Source of the DNA: a candidate division WOR-3 bacterium
Lineage (GTDB): Bacteria; Hydrothermota; UBA3072
DNA: 7,924 bases
Direction of reading: 5' to 3'
Assembly (NCBI GenBank): GCA_039804165.1
Contig: JBDRZZ010000039.1
Location: forward strand, 1 to 7,924
Position numbers and translations under genes: made by a program. The notes beneath the pieces were generated by a model. The model saw only the letters and a program-made list of their open reading frames with translations, did not search any database and had not been told where the DNA came from. Positions 476 through 7,471 of this stretch are shown here, one piece after another (position 1 is the first letter of the stretch; each line of letters starts with the position of its first letter).

Positions 476-1111
476 CTACAACCTCTTTCGTCTTATAAAA
501 AATAACGATAATATAAGAATAACAACTACGATAACTAATTTTCTCCACTCAGCATGTGGAAAGAGGATTTTTTGTATGATTTCTAATTTTTTATTAATGT
601 AACGAGCCATCGGAGATATAATTAAAATAATCATTGAAGCAATATACATATTATCTCTGTTAATAATAGAAAAGAAAATAGTAAAAGAAGAATAAAACAA
701 AATTTCTACTATACAAGAAATAATTAAACCACTGAATTGAGAATGCAAATCATACGCATAATAAAAAACGGTGGGCAAAATTACTACTATAAGGAATAGC
801 ATTGAAGAAATTATGTAAATAACATAATAGCCAATAAGCAACTCAACAGTTCTTATTGGCTTAGTTAGAAGTATTTCAAAATACCCTCTACCTCCATCCT
901 TTCCTAATCCATTTATACCTGAGATTATACTAAAATAAATTGAGAAAAGGGGAGCTGTTCCATATCTGAAAAACTTAAAAGAATCTTCATTAAATGGCAT
1001 AGAAAAATAAAATGTAATAAAGTAAAGAATAGCACCAACTATATAAAAAAGAAGAAAAGATTTATCTCTTATTCTGTTCAATAAAATATAATAAAAAACT
1101 CCTTTATTCAT
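476..1111 (-). CDS. ABC-2 type transporter permease, six membrane segments
   Basis: This is a 211-residue integral membrane protein with about six hydrophobic segments (roughly residues 19-38, 51-69, 92-116, 126-149, 155-168 and 192-206). It ends in a basic RRKR tail. The stretch GYFEILLTKPI (77-87) before the third segment resembles the cytoplasmic coupling region of ABC-2 permeases. The start codon overlaps the end of the ATPase gene by eight bases (ATGAATAA), so the two are translationally coupled and almost certainly form one transporter, with a homodimer of each subunit likely. Small ABC-2 pairs in RiPP clusters usually export the peptide or protect the producer (family knowledge). The substrate here is inferred only from the neighbours. 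Confidence 0.88.
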   Translation of the reverse strand: MNKGVFYYILLNRIRDKSFLLFYIVGAILYFITFYFSMPFNEDSFKFFRYGTAPLFSIYFSIISGINGLGKDGGRGYFEILLTKPIRTVELLIGYYVIYIISSMLFLIVVILPTVFYYAYDLHSQFSGLIISCIVEILFYSSFTIFFSIINRDNMYIASMIILIISPMARYINKKLEIIQKILFPHAEWRKLVIVVVILILSLFFIRRKRL

Positions 1112-1796
1112 CTTTTACCATTTTCATAAATTCATCTTCGAGAGTTGCTGTCTTTATTTCTTTAAGCTCTTTATAATTTTCTCCATTTTTGATAAAGATA
1201 ACACGAGTTGCAATTTTTTCTACATCAAAAAGAGTGTGGGAGGAAAAAATGATAATTTTATTTTTTTGGCTTTTCAAATAATCTCTAATTCTAACCCTGG
1301 TTTCAGGGTCTATTCCATCAAAGGGCTCATCAAGAATAAGAAGGTGAGACTTATTTATATTTGCAAGAGATGCCATGAAATAGGCTCTTCTTTTAGTCCC
1401 TTTAGAAAGGGAGGAAAGAGGTCTTTTTAGATAAAGCCCCAAATCAAACAATTCAATTAGCTCCGATTTTACATTCTTCACCTCCTCTTTCTTCAACTTA
1501 TAAAGCAAGGAATGAACCCTGAATAAATCATCCACTGTAAATTCCTCTCTAAATTTCGGCTCCTCAGGAAGATAAGAAATAAACTCAAAGATTTTGAAAG
1601 AAGGAATTTGATTAAAAATACGTACGATTCCACTATAATCTTTTAAAAGCCCTACAATTATTCTAAAAAGAGTGGTTTTCCCTGCACCATTTGGCCCTAT
1701 AATCCCTATTACTTCCCCACTGGAAGCTTCAAAGGAGAATCCATTCAAAGCCCTTACCTTTCCGTAACTTTTGAAAATATTTTTCACAGAAAGCAT
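1104..1796 (-). CDS. ABC transporter ATP-binding protein (ABC-2 export/immunity class)
   Basis: This 230-residue protein is one complete ABC nucleotide-binding domain. Walker A is GPNGAGKTT (34-42). The Q-loop is in YLPEEP, with Glu in place of Gln as is common in ABC-2 exporters. The signature is LSKGTKRR (130-137), Walker B is LLILDEP (152-158), the D-loop is GID (161-163), and the switch histidine is in SSH (185-187). It would hydrolyse ATP on the cytoplasmic face to drive the permease encoded next, with which it overlaps by eight bases. There is no C39 peptidase domain, so it cannot itself remove a leader peptide. The ATG at 1796 has a usable GAGAGG ribosome-binding site. It is separated from the radical SAM gene upstream by 66 bases without a terminator, consistent with one transcript. 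Confidence 0.95.
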   Translation of the reverse strand: MLSVKNIFKSYGKVRALNGFSFEASSGEVIGIIGPNGAGKTTLFRIIVGLLKDYSGIVRIFNQIPSFKIFEFISYLPEEPKFREEFTVDDLFRVHSLLYKLKKEEVKNVKSELIELFDLGLYLKRPLSSLSKGTKRRAYFMASLANINKSHLLILDEPFDGIDPETRVRIRDYLKSQKNKIIIFSSHTLFDVEKIATRVIFIKNGENYKELKEIKTATLEDEFMKMVKDE

Positions 1797-1862
1797 TGAT
1801 ACCTCTCTAACACTGTCTTCCCTTTTATGTAGATATTTTTTCTCCGCATTTTTTTATCTCCA

Positions 1863-3134
1863 TTAAGTTTCATTTGCATATATATTGCATAAATTCCATT
1901 TGCCAATAACATATTCATAATTTGATATAGAAGGACATAATGAATAAAAAACACACATTTTACATGGCCATACATTTTTTCTAACCTTCTTCCAAGAACT
2001 TCCTTTATTCAACTCCTTCGCTATTATGTCAATTATATTATCTTGACCAAATTTTCCAATACTGGGATTGTTGATATTTCCATAAATTTTTTTGTCGCTT
2101 AATATAATCAATTTTCTAAACGTGAATTTGTTCAATGTTTTTCTAATAAAAATATCCTTCATGGACGAAGAACTTTCTAATATTGCTTTTTTATCAATGA
2201 ATACATTTCTTCTGAAAAAATTTATATTCCTACCATTAAAAAATGGAAAGAAAGCAAAGCTTTTTATCTTATATTTAGAAATCAAATTTTCAGCATCTTC
2301 AATGTTTTTTTCCGTTTCAACAATAAATTTGAAACAAAAGTTTTTATTTAAGTGATTTAAAAAATTTAAGATTCCTTCAAAAAGGCTCTCTTTTAAGGGG
2401 AAATTAAATAGAATACTTAATGATGAATATTGGTTATCCATCATATAAAGATCTTTTTCAAATATTAAATTCAAATAATGAATAAAATACTCCTTTTTTA
2501 ATGTATTTCGATTTAATAGGTCAATTAATTCACTAAATCTAGAATATAAAAGGATATTCCCCCCAAGAATATTAAGTTTATATAATTTGCTCCCTTTCAG
2601 TTCATTTAGAAGAAAATTTATTTCTTCAATATTTACTTCGTGCTTTTTATTTGTTTTAAAACAAAAAGGAAATTGTTTGTAATAACTTTTACAAAATTCA
2701 CATGATTGATTACATTGATTATTAATGTATAGATAAATTGTGTCTATATAATCTTTTAGAGAATCCTTTCTCAAGATTTTGTCATTTTTGACTCCAAATG
2801 TTAATCCTTCAATTGACTTCTGTAAGCTAAGCACGGGTGTTAATTGAATCGGTTTACCCAAGCTAAAAGTGGTGTTTATTAAACCACCCATAAAATATTT
2901 TTTAATTTCCTCTATAAATTCACAAATATTATCTGTAATCTCTTTTCCATATAATCTTGCAACATACAAGTTCCTTTCTGAAATCAGTTTTTTGATTATT
3001 CTAATTATCTCTTTGTCTTTATATTCAAGCAACTTGTGGCTCAAAGTGTTATATAAGATTGCCTGATTATTTTTAACTGCGACATAAACAAATGGATTTA
3101 AATAAAGCCAATAAGATTTATTGAATTCTTTCAT
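1863..3134 (-). CDS. Second radical SAM-like protein with RRE-like N-terminus (resembles the 'pseudo-rSAM' partner family)
   Basis: This is a 423-residue protein. The N-terminal ~100 residues (FVYVAVKNNQAILYNTLSHK, 15-34, onward) look like a PqqD-type RiPP recognition domain. A central radical SAM-like domain follows, with a complete CX3CX2C motif (C141, C145, C148; CNQSCEFC). The GGE-type glycine motif reads GGN (191-193). The C-terminus has a short auxiliary-cluster motif (C391, C394, C400, C416) with LCPSISNYEYVIG. The overall design matches, from memory, the accessory family called pseudo-rSAM/SPASM of the GG-Bacteroidales peptide system, whose members often lack the cluster cysteines. 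Here they are intact, so it may be catalytic. It starts only three bases after the maturase stop with a weak ribosome-binding site, so coupled translation is likely. Probable role: substrate recognition or a second modification of the precursor peptide. Confidence 0.8.
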   Translation of the reverse strand: MKEFNKSYWLYLNPFVYVAVKNNQAILYNTLSHKLLEYKDKEIIRIIKKLISERNLYVARLYGKEITDNICEFIEEIKKYFMGGLINTTFSLGKPIQLTPVLSLQKSIEGLTFGVKNDKILRKDSLKDYIDTIYLYINNQCNQSCEFCKSYYKQFPFCFKTNKKHEVNIEEINFLLNELKGSKLYKLNILGGNILLYSRFSELIDLLNRNTLKKEYFIHYLNLIFEKDLYMMDNQYSSLSILFNFPLKESLFEGILNFLNHLNKNFCFKFIVETEKNIEDAENLISKYKIKSFAFFPFFNGRNINFFRRNVFIDKKAILESSSSMKDIFIRKTLNKFTFRKLIILSDKKIYGNINNPSIGKFGQDNIIDIIAKELNKGSSWKKVRKNVWPCKMCVFYSLCPSISNYEYVIGKWNLCNIYANET

Positions 3135-3137
3135 AAT

Positions 3138-4664
3138 TTAAATCTCGCTCTCAATCTCAATGTTTCGCATAATTCTTTTATATAATTTGGGCATTTCTTC
3201 TAACAGAGATATTACAAAAGAAGATTTTTCTAAGAAATCGTTATAATTAAGGAAATTATCACATCTTACTCTCTTTTCTTCTAAATTTAATTGAAAAATG
3301 CATTGACCACAAAGTTCATTATTATAACAGTTGTTACATAATTTAGCCATTTTCTTATAGTATTTATTATATTTGTCAGCTATTTCCTGAAAATCCAAAT
3401 TAATTTTTTCCTTTTCTATTCTACCACAATAATATTTGTGCATAATCCTTTCGCAAGGGAATATTTTCCCATTTACAGTGATAAATACTTTCTTTTCAAA
3501 AGGATTACAGGTTCCAGTTGTTATATAATTGATATTATCTTTATTATATAAAAATGAATTAATGTTATCATAAACACAACCACTATACGCTTTGATAAAA
3601 GCCTCTATTCCTTTAAGTTTGGGCATCTCTGATAATTTAATATCTTTATAATAGATAGGTATTTCTTTGATTTCTGTATCTATGGTTTTCCTCTTTATTT
3701 TTTCATAATCTTTTCTTTTCTCTGGTTTGATACCTACACCTGATAATCCCAGAACTATTGGTCTTTTATTAAATGTTTCTTTGAAATACTTTAAAACTTG
3801 ATAAGGAGAATTTTTATTATGTATTACAGATATAAAGTTAACAAATTTTTCAAAATATTCTGGATACCTATTTTTTAATCTTAAAGCATTATTATAAACT
3901 ATTTCATAACTTGGAGTATGGTCGGGGAAAATCCGATATTCATTGTTTTCTTTATTCCCATCCAAGCTGATTAACAATAAGAAGTTATTATCAACGAGAA
4001 AATCCATATACTTATCTAAAAGAGTCCCGTTTGTGGTAATTGAAAAAATGAAACTCAAAGTAGGCAATTTTATTCCTTTTACATAATCTACCATTTCTTT
4101 AATAAAAGAAAAATTCAGCAATGGTTCTCCGCCATAAAAAGAAACTGCGATTTTTCTATGAGTTTTTATGAAAGGAAAATACTCCTTTTTTAAGGCCATT
4201 ATATAATCAATAACATTTTTACCTATTTTAATACTAAGTTTTTTCCCTCTTCTTTTATCATATCCGTTATATAATTCTCCATATCCACAATATACACACT
4301 TCATATTACAACTATCTGTGACTTCAAAACTAATATGGTCTGTATTAGCAAGATAAAATTTTATATTTTCTGCACGATAATGTCTTACTTTTTCCAATTC
4401 GACTGTTTTTTTAGAATTGAAATAGTTGTGTTCTTTTAAGAACATAAAATATTCATAATAATATCGAATTGTATCTTTCTCTACCTTTATCTTTTTACCT
4501 TCAAAATTTATATAATTACTTTTAAAACTATTTATCCAATTCTTTAGATCTACCCCACTTTCATACAATTTTATTAAATATGCTAATATAGGATGTAGAA
4601 GTAAAACCTGGGGAATGCCCGGAGCTAACAAATAGAAATTCTCTTTTTGGGTTTTTATTAACAT
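3138..4664 (-). CDS. Radical SAM/SPASM peptide maturase
   Basis: This 508-residue enzyme (from the ATG at 4664) would reductively cleave S-adenosylmethionine to modify a peptide. An N-terminal ~100-residue region of RRE-like character precedes the radical SAM core. The core has CX3CX2C at C119, C123 and C126 (CNMKCVYC, then GYGELYNGYDKR) and the GGEP motif at 178-181. The C-terminal SPASM region carries cysteines at about 386, 404, 413, 443, 446, 452, 455 and 468, enough for two auxiliary 4Fe-4S clusters. It resembles, from memory, the maturase of the GG-Bacteroidales RiPP family. Start choice: the ATG at 4664 overlaps the propeller stop (TAATG), follows AAAAGGA at good spacing and fits the family N-terminus. 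An ATG at 4700 has an even stronger GAGAGGAG site and would add 12 residues. Confidence 0.92.
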   Translation of the reverse strand: MLIKTQKENFYLLAPGIPQVLLLHPILAYLIKLYESGVDLKNWINSFKSNYINFEGKKIKVEKDTIRYYYEYFMFLKEHNYFNSKKTVELEKVRHYRAENIKFYLANTDHISFEVTDSCNMKCVYCGYGELYNGYDKRRGKKLSIKIGKNVIDYIMALKKEYFPFIKTHRKIAVSFYGGEPLLNFSFIKEMVDYVKGIKLPTLSFIFSITTNGTLLDKYMDFLVDNNFLLLISLDGNKENNEYRIFPDHTPSYEIVYNNALRLKNRYPEYFEKFVNFISVIHNKNSPYQVLKYFKETFNKRPIVLGLSGVGIKPEKRKDYEKIKRKTIDTEIKEIPIYYKDIKLSEMPKLKGIEAFIKAYSGCVYDNINSFLYNKDNINYITTGTCNPFEKKVFITVNGKIFPCERIMHKYYCGRIEKEKINLDFQEIADKYNKYYKKMAKLCNNCYNNELCGQCIFQLNLEEKRVRCDNFLNYNDFLEKSSFVISLLEEMPKLYKRIMRNIEIESEI

Positions 4665-5677
4665 TATTTTCCTTTTAGCGAGCTCACATGTAACTCCCAT
4701 TTCTCTCCTCTCTCAATTAATTGATATAACTTATTATCTTTTATGGAGTATGGAAATAACTCTAGGATATTTTTTTCTTTAATCTCTGTGGCAATTGTTT
4801 CTAAGAAGTTTCCTTGCATGTCAAATAAATAAAAGAATTTTTTTCCTTTCTTCTCAGCATATGGAAGAACATAAATCTTATTATCTGCAATTTGATAGTC
4901 TCTGATAATCGGGAAATATTCAGGAAATCTCATTTTACTTTTAAGATATTCAAACATTACTTTAGTTCCTGGATGTTCCTTGTAAAAATTGTAAACTTCT
5001 TCTTTATGAATATCAGATACTCTGAGCTTCCCATAATCATGTTTAATAGAAAAGACTTCTCTTCCAGTTGATTCAAAAACATGAATGATCCCATTTTCGT
5101 CACTGACAAAGATTTTATTATATTTACTGTAAAATTTAATAGACTCTTGATTCAGTGGATTGAATCCTTTATGTAAATCCTGAGGTTGAAAGGGAGTCCT
5201 TTGCCTGAAAATTTCTTTCTTTTTATTAAGATTTTTATCATATAAATCTATTGTAAGATACTGCACACCATTTTCCATCAAAACGGAAGTTCCAGCAAAT
5301 ATTTCTCCACAGGGTTGATATTCTGATTCTCTTCTTGGTTTCCTTATCTCTTTTAATAACCTCCCATCCTCTGTAAATATGGAAACTTTTGATAAGCTAT
5401 TGATAAAAAGATAGTCATTCTGAACAAAAGGCTTAATTTTAAAACCCGGAGCAGTTAAGAATTCTCCTGGTCCCTCCCCCTTTTCCCCAAATTTTTTTAA
5501 AAGTTTAAAATCCTCTAATGAATAAATGTAAATAGAAGTTTCTTCAACAATAAATATTTTGTTTTTATTTACAATAATGAAATCGGGATTGATAAGTTCT
5601 GGAATTTGAACGACCTTTCCAACTAAAATAAAAGACAAGAAAATGATTCCCAAACTAACTAAAATAAACCTTCTCAT
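4664..5677 (-). CDS. Secreted 6-bladed beta-propeller protein
   Basis: This is a 337-residue protein with an N-terminal signal peptide (basic MRR, hydrophobic core to about residue 20). There is no lipobox cysteine, so it is predicted to be periplasmic or secreted. FGEKGEGPGEF (63-73) is the hallmark of the 6-bladed beta-propeller family found widely in Bacteroidetes and candidate phyla. Repeated strand pairs such as IFIVEETSIYIYS, YLFINSLSKVSIFTEDG and IFVSDENGIIHVFESTG are individual blades. No catalytic motif is evident. It begins with a strong AAAGGAGA site and a good sigma-70-like promoter just upstream, and its stop is fused with the maturase start (TAATG). It is thus tied to the modification genes, yet acts outside the cytoplasm. 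A role in binding the exported peptide, in immunity or as its target is a guess. Confidence 0.8.
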   Translation of the reverse strand: MRRFILVSLGIIFLSFILVGKVVQIPELINPDFIIVNKNKIFIVEETSIYIYSLEDFKLLKKFGEKGEGPGEFLTAPGFKIKPFVQNDYLFINSLSKVSIFTEDGRLLKEIRKPRRESEYQPCGEIFAGTSVLMENGVQYLTIDLYDKNLNKKKEIFRQRTPFQPQDLHKGFNPLNQESIKFYSKYNKIFVSDENGIIHVFESTGREVFSIKHDYGKLRVSDIHKEEVYNFYKEHPGTKVMFEYLKSKMRFPEYFPIIRDYQIADNKIYVLPYAEKKGKKFFYLFDMQGNFLETIATEIKEKNILELFPYSIKDNKLYQLIERGEKWELHVSSLKGK

Positions 5678-5698
5678 ATTTATCTCCTTTCTCGAATC

Positions 5699-5727
5699 AT
5701 TTTAATTAATTTATTTAAATTGTTCAA
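5699..5727 (-). promoter_or_regulatory. Possible sigma-70 promoter of the propeller/maturase operon
   Basis: On the minus strand TTGAAC (5727-5722) and TAAAAT (5704-5699) are separated by exactly 17 bases. Transcription would begin about 7 bases further on, giving a very short leader that holds just the AAAGGAGA ribosome-binding site of the propeller gene. The region is AT-rich, so chance matches are possible, but the spacing and position are right. It would let the enzymes be made independently of the precursor promoter. Confidence 0.5.
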
Positions 5728-5781
5728 GGTAAACTCTCCTATAAAAAAACCTTCTCTCTTTGAGCCTTTCGTTTTGCTATC

Positions 5782-5852
5782 CACACAGAGAAAAGTCAGA
5801 CTCGGGATAAAATCTGTCCCGAGTCTGACTCGTTAAGCACCTATTCTGTGTG
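5782..5852 (-). terminator. Two-tier hairpin after the precursor gene (terminator or attenuator)
   Basis: A perfect 14-bp inverted repeat (AGTCAGACTCGGGA, 5794-5807, with its complement at 5817-5830) has a 9-base loop. It is enclosed by a second perfect 8-bp repeat (CACACAGA 5782-5789, TCTGTGTG 5845-5852). On the minus strand the inner stem is followed by TTTTCTC, a short U-tract, which makes it a partial rho-independent terminator; on the plus strand no T-run follows. It begins two bases past the precursor stop codon. Hairpins in this place commonly raise peptide message over enzyme message. The outer stem could alternatively protect the 3' end. Confidence 0.62.
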
Positions 5853-5854
5853 CC

Positions 5855-6046
5855 TTATCCCCAGGCTAATCCAAATACAGTAAAAATGCTCCCACACTGA
5901 CACTCCGAGTGTATATTCTCAGAAAAGTAAATTATTTCATTACCGCCACACGCTTCAGTACAATTACTCACAGCCATAGGGACTACAGATTCAGATGGGT
6001 ATTCTGTCATTTGGGATTCCAAGTAAGTTAATTTTAAGTTAGCCAT
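5855..6046 (-). CDS. RiPP precursor peptide with four cysteines
   Basis: This is a 63-residue peptide with a perfect ribosome-binding site (AAGGAGGTT, 5 bases before ATG). It stands alone in front of the radical SAM operon, where such precursors belong. Residues 1-27 (starting MANLKLTYLESQM) are Cys-free and acidic, as in leaders. The rest contains C29, C33, C49 and C51 (NCTEACGGNE and ECQCGS) and ends in FTVFGLAWG. Cysteines near the SAM-enzyme genes suggest thioether-type crosslinks, but the chemistry is not visible in the sequence. The GG at 34-35 could be a double-glycine cleavage site leaving a 28-residue core with two cysteines, or part of a modified core. It is followed at once by a strong hairpin. 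I recognise no named precursor family with confidence. Confidence 0.82.
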   Translation of the reverse strand: MANLKLTYLESQMTEYPSESVVPMAVSNCTEACGGNEIIYFSENIHSECQCGSIFTVFGLAWG

Positions 6047-6051
6047 CTCTT

Positions 6052-6060
6052 AACCTCCTT
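6052..6060 (-). promoter_or_regulatory. Strong ribosome-binding site of the precursor peptide gene
   Basis: AAGGAGGTT lies 5 bases upstream of the ATG at 6046. It fixes the start codon of this very short gene and predicts high translation, as expected for a RiPP precursor. Confidence 0.85.
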
Positions 6061-6070
6061 AAATTTGTTT

Positions 6071-6086
6071 TGCCTGTCATCAGGCA
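6071..6086 (-). other. Small perfect hairpin in the precursor leader
   Basis: TGCCTG and CAGGCA form a 6-bp stem with a 4-base loop. It stands 10 bases upstream of the precursor ribosome-binding site on the minus-strand transcript. There is no T-run in that direction, so it is not a terminator. It may stabilise the message or shape access to the ribosome-binding site. The function is unproven. Confidence 0.4.
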
Positions 6087-6184
6087 TTTCTATAAAACCT
6101 TTTCCCATTTGCCCATACAAAATATTAATCTTAACTTATATTCTCACCTCCTTTTCTTCCAATTACATCTTATATAATACTTAT

Positions 6185-6200
6185 ATCAAGAAATATGCCA
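6185..6200 (-). promoter_or_regulatory. Probable sigma-54 (-24/-12) promoter of the precursor gene
   Basis: On the minus strand TGGCATATTTCTTGAT matches the sigma-54 consensus TGGCAC-N5-TTGC-W. It has GG and TTG at the correct spacing; the last conserved C of the -12 element is A. It is the best such site between the EBP gene and the precursor. The predicted transcript would start near 6174 and carry a leader of about 128 bases. The case is strengthened by the neighbouring sigma-54 activator gene and by palindromes centred about 87, 154 and 173 bases upstream of the predicted start, a normal enhancer distance. A weak sigma-70 site (TATAAG near 6180) overlaps and cannot be excluded. Confidence 0.5.
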
Positions 6201-6253
6201 GAATTAAGATTGGCTTCTGGAGAGGGTTTTGGGATTTTGGTGTTCTTGCTAAC

Positions 6254-6269
6254 TTACGATATTTCGTAA
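6254..6269. promoter_or_regulatory. Operator/enhancer palindrome, copy 1
   Basis: TTACGATATTTCGTAA consists of 6-bp inverted arms TTACGA/TCGTAA around 4 bases. It is the exact reverse complement of copy 2. It is centred about 87 bases upstream of the predicted sigma-54 start of the precursor gene. It is a likely binding site of the adjacent Fis-type EBP. Confidence 0.7.
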
Positions 6270-6320
6270 TTTGGATGGCTAAATTGGCTGATTTGCTCAT
6301 TCATAGGCAATTTATACTAC

Positions 6321-6336
6321 TTACGAAATATCGTAA
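6321..6336. promoter_or_regulatory. Operator/enhancer palindrome, copy 2
   Basis: TTACGAAATATCGTAA has the same arms as copies 1 and 3. Its centre is 67 bases from copy 1 and 19 bases from copy 3, so copies 2 and 3 lie about two helix turns apart and could bind cooperating dimers. Confidence 0.72.
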
Positions 6337-6339
6337 TTA

Positions 6340-6355
6340 TTACGATATATCGTAA
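6340..6355. promoter_or_regulatory. Operator/enhancer palindrome, copy 3
   Basis: TTACGATATATCGTAA is a perfect 16-bp palindrome. It ends one base beyond the stop codon of the EBP gene. With copies 1 and 2 it forms a three-site array upstream of the precursor promoter. Confidence 0.75.
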
Positions 6356-6356
6356 A

Positions 6357-7301
6357 TTACTCTATTCCTAACCTTTTCATTTTGCTAATCAGTGTTGTAA
6401 GGGGAATCCCCAGAATTTTTGCCGCTTTGCTTTTATTTCCTTTTGTAAGGGATAATACCTTCTGAATGTGTGTTCTTATTGCATTGTTTAGAGTTGGATC
6501 ATCCATTTGCTCTTTTTTGTTGAAGGAAAGAATAGAATCCATAGATAAGCCCTTCTTTGATAGAAAGGGAGTCAATTCCAGAGGAATGGATTGTTCTTTC
6601 TCCTCGTTCTTCATCTTCTCTGGAAGGTCTTCTATCTCTATTGTTTTCCCTTTTGAAAGAAGAACTGCACTGTGTATCACTTTCCTCATCTCCCTAAGAT
6701 TCCCTGGCCATGGGTATCTCTTCAGTGCTTCCATTGCTGGCTCGCTTATCTCCTTCTCCATGCCAAGTCTCTTACATTCCTTGAGAAGAAAATAATAAAT
6801 GTATGCTTCTTTATCCTCCCTCTCCCTCAAAGGTAGGATTGTAAGCTCAAGACCTTCTATTCTGTAAAATAATGGTAGATAAAGAGAATTCTTTAGCTCT
6901 TCCAGTGAAAGAGAGCTTGCTGAGATTATTCGAACATCCGCTCTTTCAATTCTGTCTGAGCCAAGGGGTTGAATCTCTCGGAAATCAAGAAATCTTAAAA
7001 GAGAACACTGGAAATTCTCTGATGACGATTGAATTTCATCCAAGAATACTGTCCCTCCATCAGCTGACTTCAGTAGCCCTCTCCTTTTTTCAATCGCTCC
7101 AGTGTATGCTCCCTTTTCATGTCCAAATAGCTTGGAGTAAAGAATGTCCTTTTCATGCTCAGATGAGCAGTTCATTGGATAAAAGGGTTTTTCTCTTCTT
7201 TTGCTCAAACAATGAATAAATCTTGATATAATCTCCTTCCCAGAGCCTGACTCACCTAAGATAAGAGCTGGCTCCTCTGATTCTGCTATTTTTTTATTTT
7301 T
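6357..7301 (-). CDS. Sigma-54 enhancer-binding protein: AAA+ and Fis-type HTH part (downstream frame of a frameshifted gene)
   Basis: This frame encodes the functional body of a sigma-54 transcription activator. Numbered from the ATG at 7471 across the frameshift (371 residues in all), it has Walker A GESGSGKE (73-80), GAYTGA (121-126, the loop that contacts sigma-54, with the tolerated F-to-Y change), Walker B GGTVFLDE (139-146), a candidate arginine-finger region FYR (202-204), WPGNLRE (255-261) and a C-terminal Fis-type helix-turn-helix (about 329-370, GNKSKAAKILGIPLTTLISK). The frame has no good start of its own: the first candidate, TTG at 7208, would remove Walker A. It must therefore be joined to the short frame 7286-7471. 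It should recognise the palindromes just past its stop codon and activate the precursor promoter. Confidence 0.88.
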   Translation of the reverse strand, partial: KNKKIAESEEPALILGESGSGKEIISRFIHCLSKRREKPFYPMNCSSEHEKDILYSKLFGHEKGAYTGAIEKRRGLLKSADGGTVFLDEIQSSSENFQCSLLRFLDFREIQPLGSDRIERADVRIISASSLSLEELKNSLYLPLFYRIEGLELTILPLREREDKEAYIYYFLLKECKRLGMEKEISEPAMEALKRYPWPGNLREMRKVIHSAVLLSKGKTIEIEDLPEKMKNEEKEQSIPLELTPFLSKKGLSMDSILSFNKKEQMDDPTLNNAIRTHIQKVLSLTKGNKSKAAKILGIPLTTLISKMKRLGIE

Positions 7302-7471
7302 TCAAAATTCTCCTTCAGCCACTCATCCTCCCACATGAAATAAAAATCTTGACTCTCTCTTCTAAGATAATGAGTAAAATCAATGCAGACCTTTTCAAAT
7401 TCTGAAGATGGCTCTAAAATCCCCTCCTCAAAAAGAATTAATCTTTTAATTTTCTCCTTCAAATCCATCAT
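7286..7471 (-). CDS. N-terminal 61 residues of the sigma-54 activator (upstream frame)
   Basis: The frame starts at ATG-ATG (7471, 7468) behind AAAAGGAGGGG; the second ATG has the better spacing. It runs 61 residues and stops at TAG (7286-7288) immediately after seven adenines. Its last residues (WLKENFEKIKK) are the helix that normally leads into the AAA+ domain. A -1 shift on the A7 continues as IAESEEPALILGESGSGKE, the expected Walker A region. The protein lacks a receiver, GAF or PAS domain: only about 60 residues precede the AAA+ domain, so its activity may be governed by a small unknown N-terminal region or by expression, as in PspF-like activators. Whether the shift is real, programmed or a sequencing error is undecided. 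Confidence 0.75.
   Translation of the reverse strand: MMDLKEKIKRLILFEEGILEPSSEFEKVCIDFTHYLRRESQDFYFMWEDEWLKENFEKIKK
7289..7315 (-). other. A7 slippery site with upstream AAGGAG (candidate -1 frameshift signal)
   Basis: The minus strand reads A-AAA-AAA-TAG at 7295-7286, with the heptamer in the correct phase for tandem -1 slippage and the zero-frame stop directly after. AAGGAG (7315-7310) lies 14 bases upstream, the spacing range in which an internal Shine-Dalgarno stimulates -1 slippage in dnaX. A downstream 5-bp stem (GAGCC/GGCTC) is possible but weak. Transcript slippage adding one A would have the same result. Confidence 0.5.

Follow-up and report, generated by a model that had tools for sequence, protein, structure and literature searches.

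A divergent radical SAM peptide operon of a WOR-3 bacterium and a putative sigma-54 circuit that recurs in its genome

Does an operon for a ribosomally synthesised and post-translationally modified peptide (RiPP) in a candidate division WOR-3 bacterium have a sigma-54 switch of its own? The question is raised by the window analysed here, a stretch of 7,924 nucleotides that makes up the entire contig C39 (JBDRZZ010000039.1) of a draft genome of 1,955,234 bases in 49 contigs, 95% complete and with a stated contamination of 0. On the minus strand, a sigma-54 activator gene is followed by genes for a 63-aa peptide, a propeller protein, a TIGR04148 maturase, a TIGR04150 protein, an ATP-binding cassette (ABC) ATPase and an ABC-2-like permease. 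An earlier note on this DNA had placed three palindromes and a -24/-12-like promoter between the activator and peptide genes, and had argued from this layout for dedicated sigma-54 control. The argument is now supported by the sigma-54 gene of the genome, by three further operons that carry the promoter together with arrays of their own, on which the earlier note was silent, and by the divergence of the recognition helices of two activators.

The array between the activator and the precursor was confirmed as three sites that are unique in the genome. The two distal sites were TTACGATATATCGTAA (6340-6355), 1 bp past the activator stop codon, and TTACGAAATATCGTAA (6321-6336), 19 bp from the first, and the proximal site was TTACGATATTTCGTAA (6254-6269), with its centre 61.5 bp upstream of the TGGC of the promoter. 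The shared pattern, TTACGA-N4-TCGTAA, occurred three times genome-wide, always in the gap that separates the activator gene from the precursor, compared to about 0.2 occurrences expected by mononucleotide chance. Downstream lay a composite promoter element of 42 bp on the minus strand, CCCTCTCCAGAAGCCAATCTTAATTCTGGCATATTTCTTGAT (6185-6226), which includes the -24/-12-like box TGGCATATTTCTTGAT at 6200-6185. As the reference for a sigma-54 promoter we used TGGCAC-N5-TTGC, with GG at -24 and GC at -12 at a fixed spacing. The box in the window has GG at -25/-24 and the correct spacing, and to this extent the promoter of the earlier note stands; transcription would be expected to start at about 6174. 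The genome has one sigma-54 gene, rpoN (PF04552, 156.6 bits), whose product ends in a canonical RpoN box, RRTVAKYR. It also encodes seven activator-type AAA+ proteins with strong PF00158 matches, one of them in the window.

A loose search of the genome for -24/-12 boxes led to contigs C40 and C49, which have boxes nearly identical to that of the window, and reading those contigs revealed the longer element. Its shared form, CCCTCTCCANAAGCCAATCNNANTTCTGGCATNNNNNTTGAT, had exactly four matches in the genome, at C39, C49 and two places on C40 (C40a and C40b), and none in the 146 other genomes of the phylum set of 147 species when up to three mismatches were allowed. A reversed control pattern of the 42-bp element had no match in the genomes listed, and the element was absent from the viral contigs searched. 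All four elements precede a gene for a short Cys-containing peptide, which is followed by propeller genes. In the C49 module these are a signal-peptide-like Cys peptide, a propeller, a thioredoxin-like protein and ABC genes, and both C40 modules have signal-peptide-like Cys peptides, propellers and thioredoxin-like proteins. Directly 5′ of the -24 box, a 26-bp block, CCCTCTCCANAAGCCAATCNNANTTC (window 6201-6226), was conserved at all four promoters. C40 also encodes secreted-looking peptides with two CX6C pairs (L084 1569-1757, 3698-3976 and 3948-4187; for example CETAYWRC...CMIGYVWC), which adjoin propeller and thioredoxin-like genes and gave no family match where searched.

Each of the four promoters had its own palindrome array. 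Counted relative to the T of TGGC, the C39 sites (TTACGA-N4-TCGTAA) lie at -155, -136 and -69 with a proximal centre at -61.5, the C40a sites (TTCTGAC-N4-GTCAGAA) at -179, -158 and -69 with a proximal centre at -60.5, the C40b sites (AATCGG-N8-CCGATT) at -160, -140 and -71 with a proximal centre at -61.5, and the C49 sites (TGWCCAWATAKGGACA) at -153, -89 and -68 with a proximal centre at -60.5. The proximal palindrome was thus centred 60.5-61.5 bp upstream of TGGC in every case, and one pair in each array was 19-21 bp apart. Three-copy palindrome families arose in 0 of 500 shuffles for each region, and in about 550 kb of control sequence, drawn from this genome and relatives with overlapping copies counted, they occurred only at these promoters; the imperfect C49 sites lie under the threshold used in both scans, and that array was read by eye. 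The regulator gene of every module has its 3′ end directly against the first palindrome, in overlap with it or at most about 10 bases away, and at C49 the activator stop codon, TGA, forms part of the palindrome.

The domains of the sigma-54 enhancer-binding protein gene (6357-7471, minus strand), which the earlier note had recognised upstream of the array, were confirmed by profile (PF00158, PF25601 and HTH_8), but an interruption at an A7 tract (7295-7289), which the note had not reported, breaks its reading frame. Read by eye, the protein has an N-terminus of 47 aa without known kind, a Walker A motif GESGSGKE, a GAYTGA loop and a Walker B motif GGTVFLDE; its C-terminal Fis-type helix-turn-helix matched PF02954 at 5.4e-10. 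The 47-aa N-terminus had no full match in the other 146 genomes at the threshold used. The short activators of other phylum members were considered as peptide modules and rejected, since they adjoin flagellar genes or are response regulators. The paralogue on C49 (L083 147-1259) is intact and open over 370 codons. Compared codon by codon, the two genes showed a synonymous divergence (dS) of 0.25 and a nonsynonymous divergence (dN) of 0.05, giving a dN/dS of 0.20. Their AAA+ parts were 95% identical (dN/dS 0.09) and their DNA-binding domains 73% identical; the proteins are near-identical through the first helices of the helix-turn-helix and differ in the recognition helix, PLTTLISKMKRLGIE vs PRTTLINKLRKMGLD. 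The recurrence of the promoter, the presence of a separate array at the same distance from each copy, and the conservation of the ATPase relative to the DNA-binding domain support dedicated sigma-54 circuits.

We propose that the sigma-54-type promoter at 6200-6185 (minus strand) would drive a divergent GG-type radical S-adenosylmethionine (SAM) RiPP operon. The activator encoded directly upstream would bind the three private palindromes as dimers, loop to the sigma-54 RNA polymerase and remodel it through ATP hydrolysis. The precursor, propeller, maturases and ABC exporter would then be made only while the activator is active, presumably in response to a signal that it reads, and a hairpin after the precursor gene would keep the precursor transcript in excess over that of the enzymes. 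The draft genome holds at least four modules with this promoter element, each with its own palindrome, and specificity would come from the pairing of recognition helix and operator. Judged from sequence, the circuit as a whole, comprising the promoter, the activator, the private array, the operon and the four modules, is in our view probable.

Several observations weigh against this circuit. In all four promoters the -12 dinucleotide is GA, not GC, a departure from the reference pattern; validated sigma-54 promoters with larger deviations from the consensus do exist (PMC12316311). At the two C40 promoters the regulator position is held by a 97-aa protein without an AAA+ domain. The earlier note had named homologous clusters that lack both activator and palindromes as evidence against its reading, and such clusters exist (L035, a Candidatus Aminicenantes locus described below, and L131); they show lineage-specific control and are not a refutation here. 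In the window copy only, a sigma-70-like site, TTGATA-N16-TGTAAT, overlaps the element. An ordinary sigma-70 promoter at this site, with the palindromes as repressor operators for another regulator, is nevertheless improbable. In the window each hexamer has 5/6 matches, but the other three copies preserve TTCTGGCAT and TTGATA and not the -10-like hexamer, and the distance of the arrays from TGGC, about 60-180 bp upstream, is usual for enhancers rather than for repressor sites. It is more improbable still, to the point of being very hard to credit, that the 42-bp element is a recently copied repeat without function. The element was found in this genome only, as such a repeat might be, but the neighbouring peptides, propellers and operators are much more diverged than the element itself, whose spacing to the proximal palindrome is constant and which always lies upstream of a peptide operon.

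The broken activator frame also counts against the circuit, and it raises the alternative that the circuit is decaying: the A7 tract would have lost one base and left the activator gene a pseudogene, and the operon would now be silent or activated in trans. As assembled, the window copy is a frameshifted member of the sigma-54 enhancer-binding protein family: an in-frame stop, TAG at 7288-7286, divides it into open reading frames at 7471-7286 and 7208-6357, which are in different frames, and its Walker A motif is reachable only across the frameshift. The codons at the break are GAA AAA ATA AAA AAA TAG, and the C49 paralogue, which reads ATA AAA AAG ATA GCA, has AAAAAAG at this place and stays open. 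A slippery tract for a programmed -1 frameshift is present, and the RNA around it is no more structured than expected by chance. On the other hand, about 310 stop-free codons follow the frameshift site, and the pairwise dN/dS of 0.20 indicates that any loss of activator function was recent. The sequence A-AAA-AAA is in the correct phase for -1 slippage to give an intact protein, by which a full-length activator might be expressed, and an assembly indel error is another possible cause of the break. We regard decay as unlikely, though much less so than the repeat or the sigma-70 promoter. A further alternative concerns the number of modules. C39 and C49 may be separate loci, or one locus as it occurs in two different strains of the population, and in the latter case there would be at most three modules per cell. 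Bases 1-127 of C49 (L083 1-127) are identical to C39 7491-7617, with divergence right after, which suggests an assembly-graph branch with k = 127, caused by a repeat or a strain variant, behind hypF. A repeat within one genome would look similar, however, and the contamination of the draft genome is stated as 0, and we give strain versions a little less than an even chance. The co-variation of the recognition helix with the operator array is the same under both readings. The module was not found at the hypF neighbourhoods of three relatives, where the gene order also differs, and this result carries little weight.

The 97-aa protein at C40 was found in this genome only, among the 147, in two copies (L084 4403-4696 and 6869-7057). 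It was all-helical in the predicted structure (predicted local distance difference test score, pLDDT, 88). The two copies share 99 identical bases, and their divergence begins close to where the helix at residues 68-80, the predicted recognition helix, ends. Searches of Pfam, NCBIfam and PDB sequences gave no convincing match, a profile comparison with the activator DNA-binding domains was negative, and the model gave weak fold matches only, including the NtrC1 DNA-binding domain (Z 3.0, 46 residues, 3.5 Å). The protein may be a DNA-binding protein of the C40 palindromes.

In a wider and more tentative interpretation, which we put somewhat below evens, the genome would contain parallel, insulated sigma-54 circuits for secreted Cys-peptide/propeller operons. 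These would share a promoter and a regulator scaffold while helix and array diversify together, like the immunity regions of temperate phages, and the 97-aa AAA-less protein would replace the activator in two of the four modules. If this is true, four promoters in one small genome would supply an orthogonal set of natural sigma-54 switches, with helices paired with operators, and a direct test bed for the evolution of activator specificity. The promoter would also be a marker for secreted-peptide operons that escape sequence searches through the shortness and diversity of their precursors.

The gene content given in the earlier note, namely a precursor, two radical SAM family proteins, a propeller and an ABC pair, was borne out by profile searches, although the matches of the permease and propeller were weak. 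All of these genes are on the minus strand. The RiPP precursor (5855-6046) has 63 aa with Cys at positions 29, 33, 49 and 51 and is preceded by an AAGGAGG ribosome-binding site; it had no NCBIfam match up to E = 1, TIGR04149 included, and an LKLxxL stretch was seen by eye. The six-bladed propeller (4664-5677) has an N-terminal signal-like sequence and matched PF15869 and PF17170 weakly. The radical SAM/SPASM peptide maturase (3138-4700) scored 438.2 bits with TIGR04148 against a cut-off of 300, and the protein of the TIGR04150 'pseudo-rSAM' family (1863-3134) scored 339.7 bits against a cut-off of 250. Within the phylum set, TIGR04150 exceeded its cut-off solely in this genome, and in an alignment the protein retained an intact CX3CX2C motif, CNQSCEFC. 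The ABC transporter ATPase (1104-1796, PF00005) and the ABC-2-like permease (476-1111, PF12698, weak) would export the product.

Two hairpins flank the precursor gene, both on the minus strand. The 5′ leader of about 130 nt contains one at 6061-6086, immediately 5′ of the Shine-Dalgarno sequence, composed of TGCCTG-ATGA-CAGGCA and AACAAATTT; C49 and C40b have this hairpin too, with both bases of one stem pair altered. Between the precursor and the propeller, a strong hairpin with a 15-bp stem is followed by TTTT (5793-5831), with a folding energy of -36.6 kcal/mol (z -6.5) for the 81-nt stretch. This hairpin is a candidate partial terminator, and a hairpin and T tract after the precursor is the usual layout for more precursor than enzyme message.

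The left contig end holds the 3′ end fragment of an IS256-type transposase gene (1-326), and the right end holds the start of an open reading frame with an acylphosphatase domain, probably hypF, in the opposite direction to the operon. Elsewhere in the genome, contig C38 carries a second RiPP-like cluster (L129 1594-8122) with a 55-aa peptide, a B12-binding radical SAM protein, a SPASM-domain protein, a propeller and an ABC pair, and neither a sigma-54 activator nor a palindrome array was found on that contig. On contig C48 (L091 62-3382), a secreted protein that starts MNRGIRMIKKSTIILIFLVFPI...PILFVHGLG is present in three tandem copies, which alternate with lipoprotein-like genes.

The enzymes of the window resemble the GG-Bacteroidales cassette of a TIGR04149 precursor, a TIGR04148 maturase and a TIGR04150 partner, described for Bacteroides, for example B. 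uniformis ATCC 8492 (PMC4573289). The TIGR04148 and TIGR04150 proteins of the window are both above the curated cut-offs, and six-bladed propellers adjoin in both systems. In contrast, the precursor of the cassette is a TIGR04149 peptide with a GG leader and its exporter is a peptidase-ABC protein, whereas the window has an ABC-2-like pair and a precursor without a TIGR04149 match; the cluster is therefore classed as related to the GG cassette and not as a full member. A Parabacteroides distasonis plasmid (NZ_OY725758.1) carries a LuxR-type regulator, a TIGR04149 precursor, TIGR04148, TIGR04150 and propellers, and the window has a sigma-54 activator instead of the LuxR-type regulator. An open-reading-frame reading of a Phocaeicola plasmid (OY726044.1) gave a precursor, a propeller, TIGR04148 with a broken frame and a TIGR04150-like protein, in the same order as in the window, and then a peptidase-ABC protein. 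In Candidatus Aminicenantes (JAPKZK010000081.1, L035), a TIGR04148 protein 38% identical over 500 aa is followed by TIGR04150, with a short precursor upstream, as in the window. This locus differs in having a GG-leader precursor, no propeller, no activator among the neighbours read and no palindrome array. One canonical -24/-12 sequence, TGGCATAATAATTGCT, lies about 330 bp upstream of its precursor (L035 7349-7364). The TIGR04150 member of P. distasonis lacks the CX3CX2C motif that the window protein keeps, and the Aminicenantes protein (L035 9514-10836) keeps it as CTLDCNIC. Intact motifs outside Bacteroidota suggest that the 'pseudo-rSAM' proteins descend from an active enzyme, and the members there may, from their sequences, be active radical SAM enzymes.

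The activator has the layout of one-component sigma-54 activators of the PspF-like kind, with a short N-terminus, an AAA+ domain, a Fis-type helix-turn-helix and upstream palindromic sites, but it has GAYTGA where PspF-like activators have GAFTGA, and its 47-aa N-terminus is distinct. For the natural-product clusters of polyketides and non-ribosomal peptides, sigma-54 control has been proposed in work of which RiPPs were not the subject (PMC3665592). The literature searched, which leaves out most subscription journals, described no RiPP, bacteriocin or lanthipeptide circuit that has a sigma-54 activator and an enhancer array to itself. The earlier note had called the arrangement not well described, and within the literature searched this holds for the circuit but not for the enzyme cassette, which is of a known Bacteroidota type. 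The biosynthetic part of the locus is a divergent example of the known GG radical SAM RiPP kind of Bacteroidota, and the unusual part is its control.

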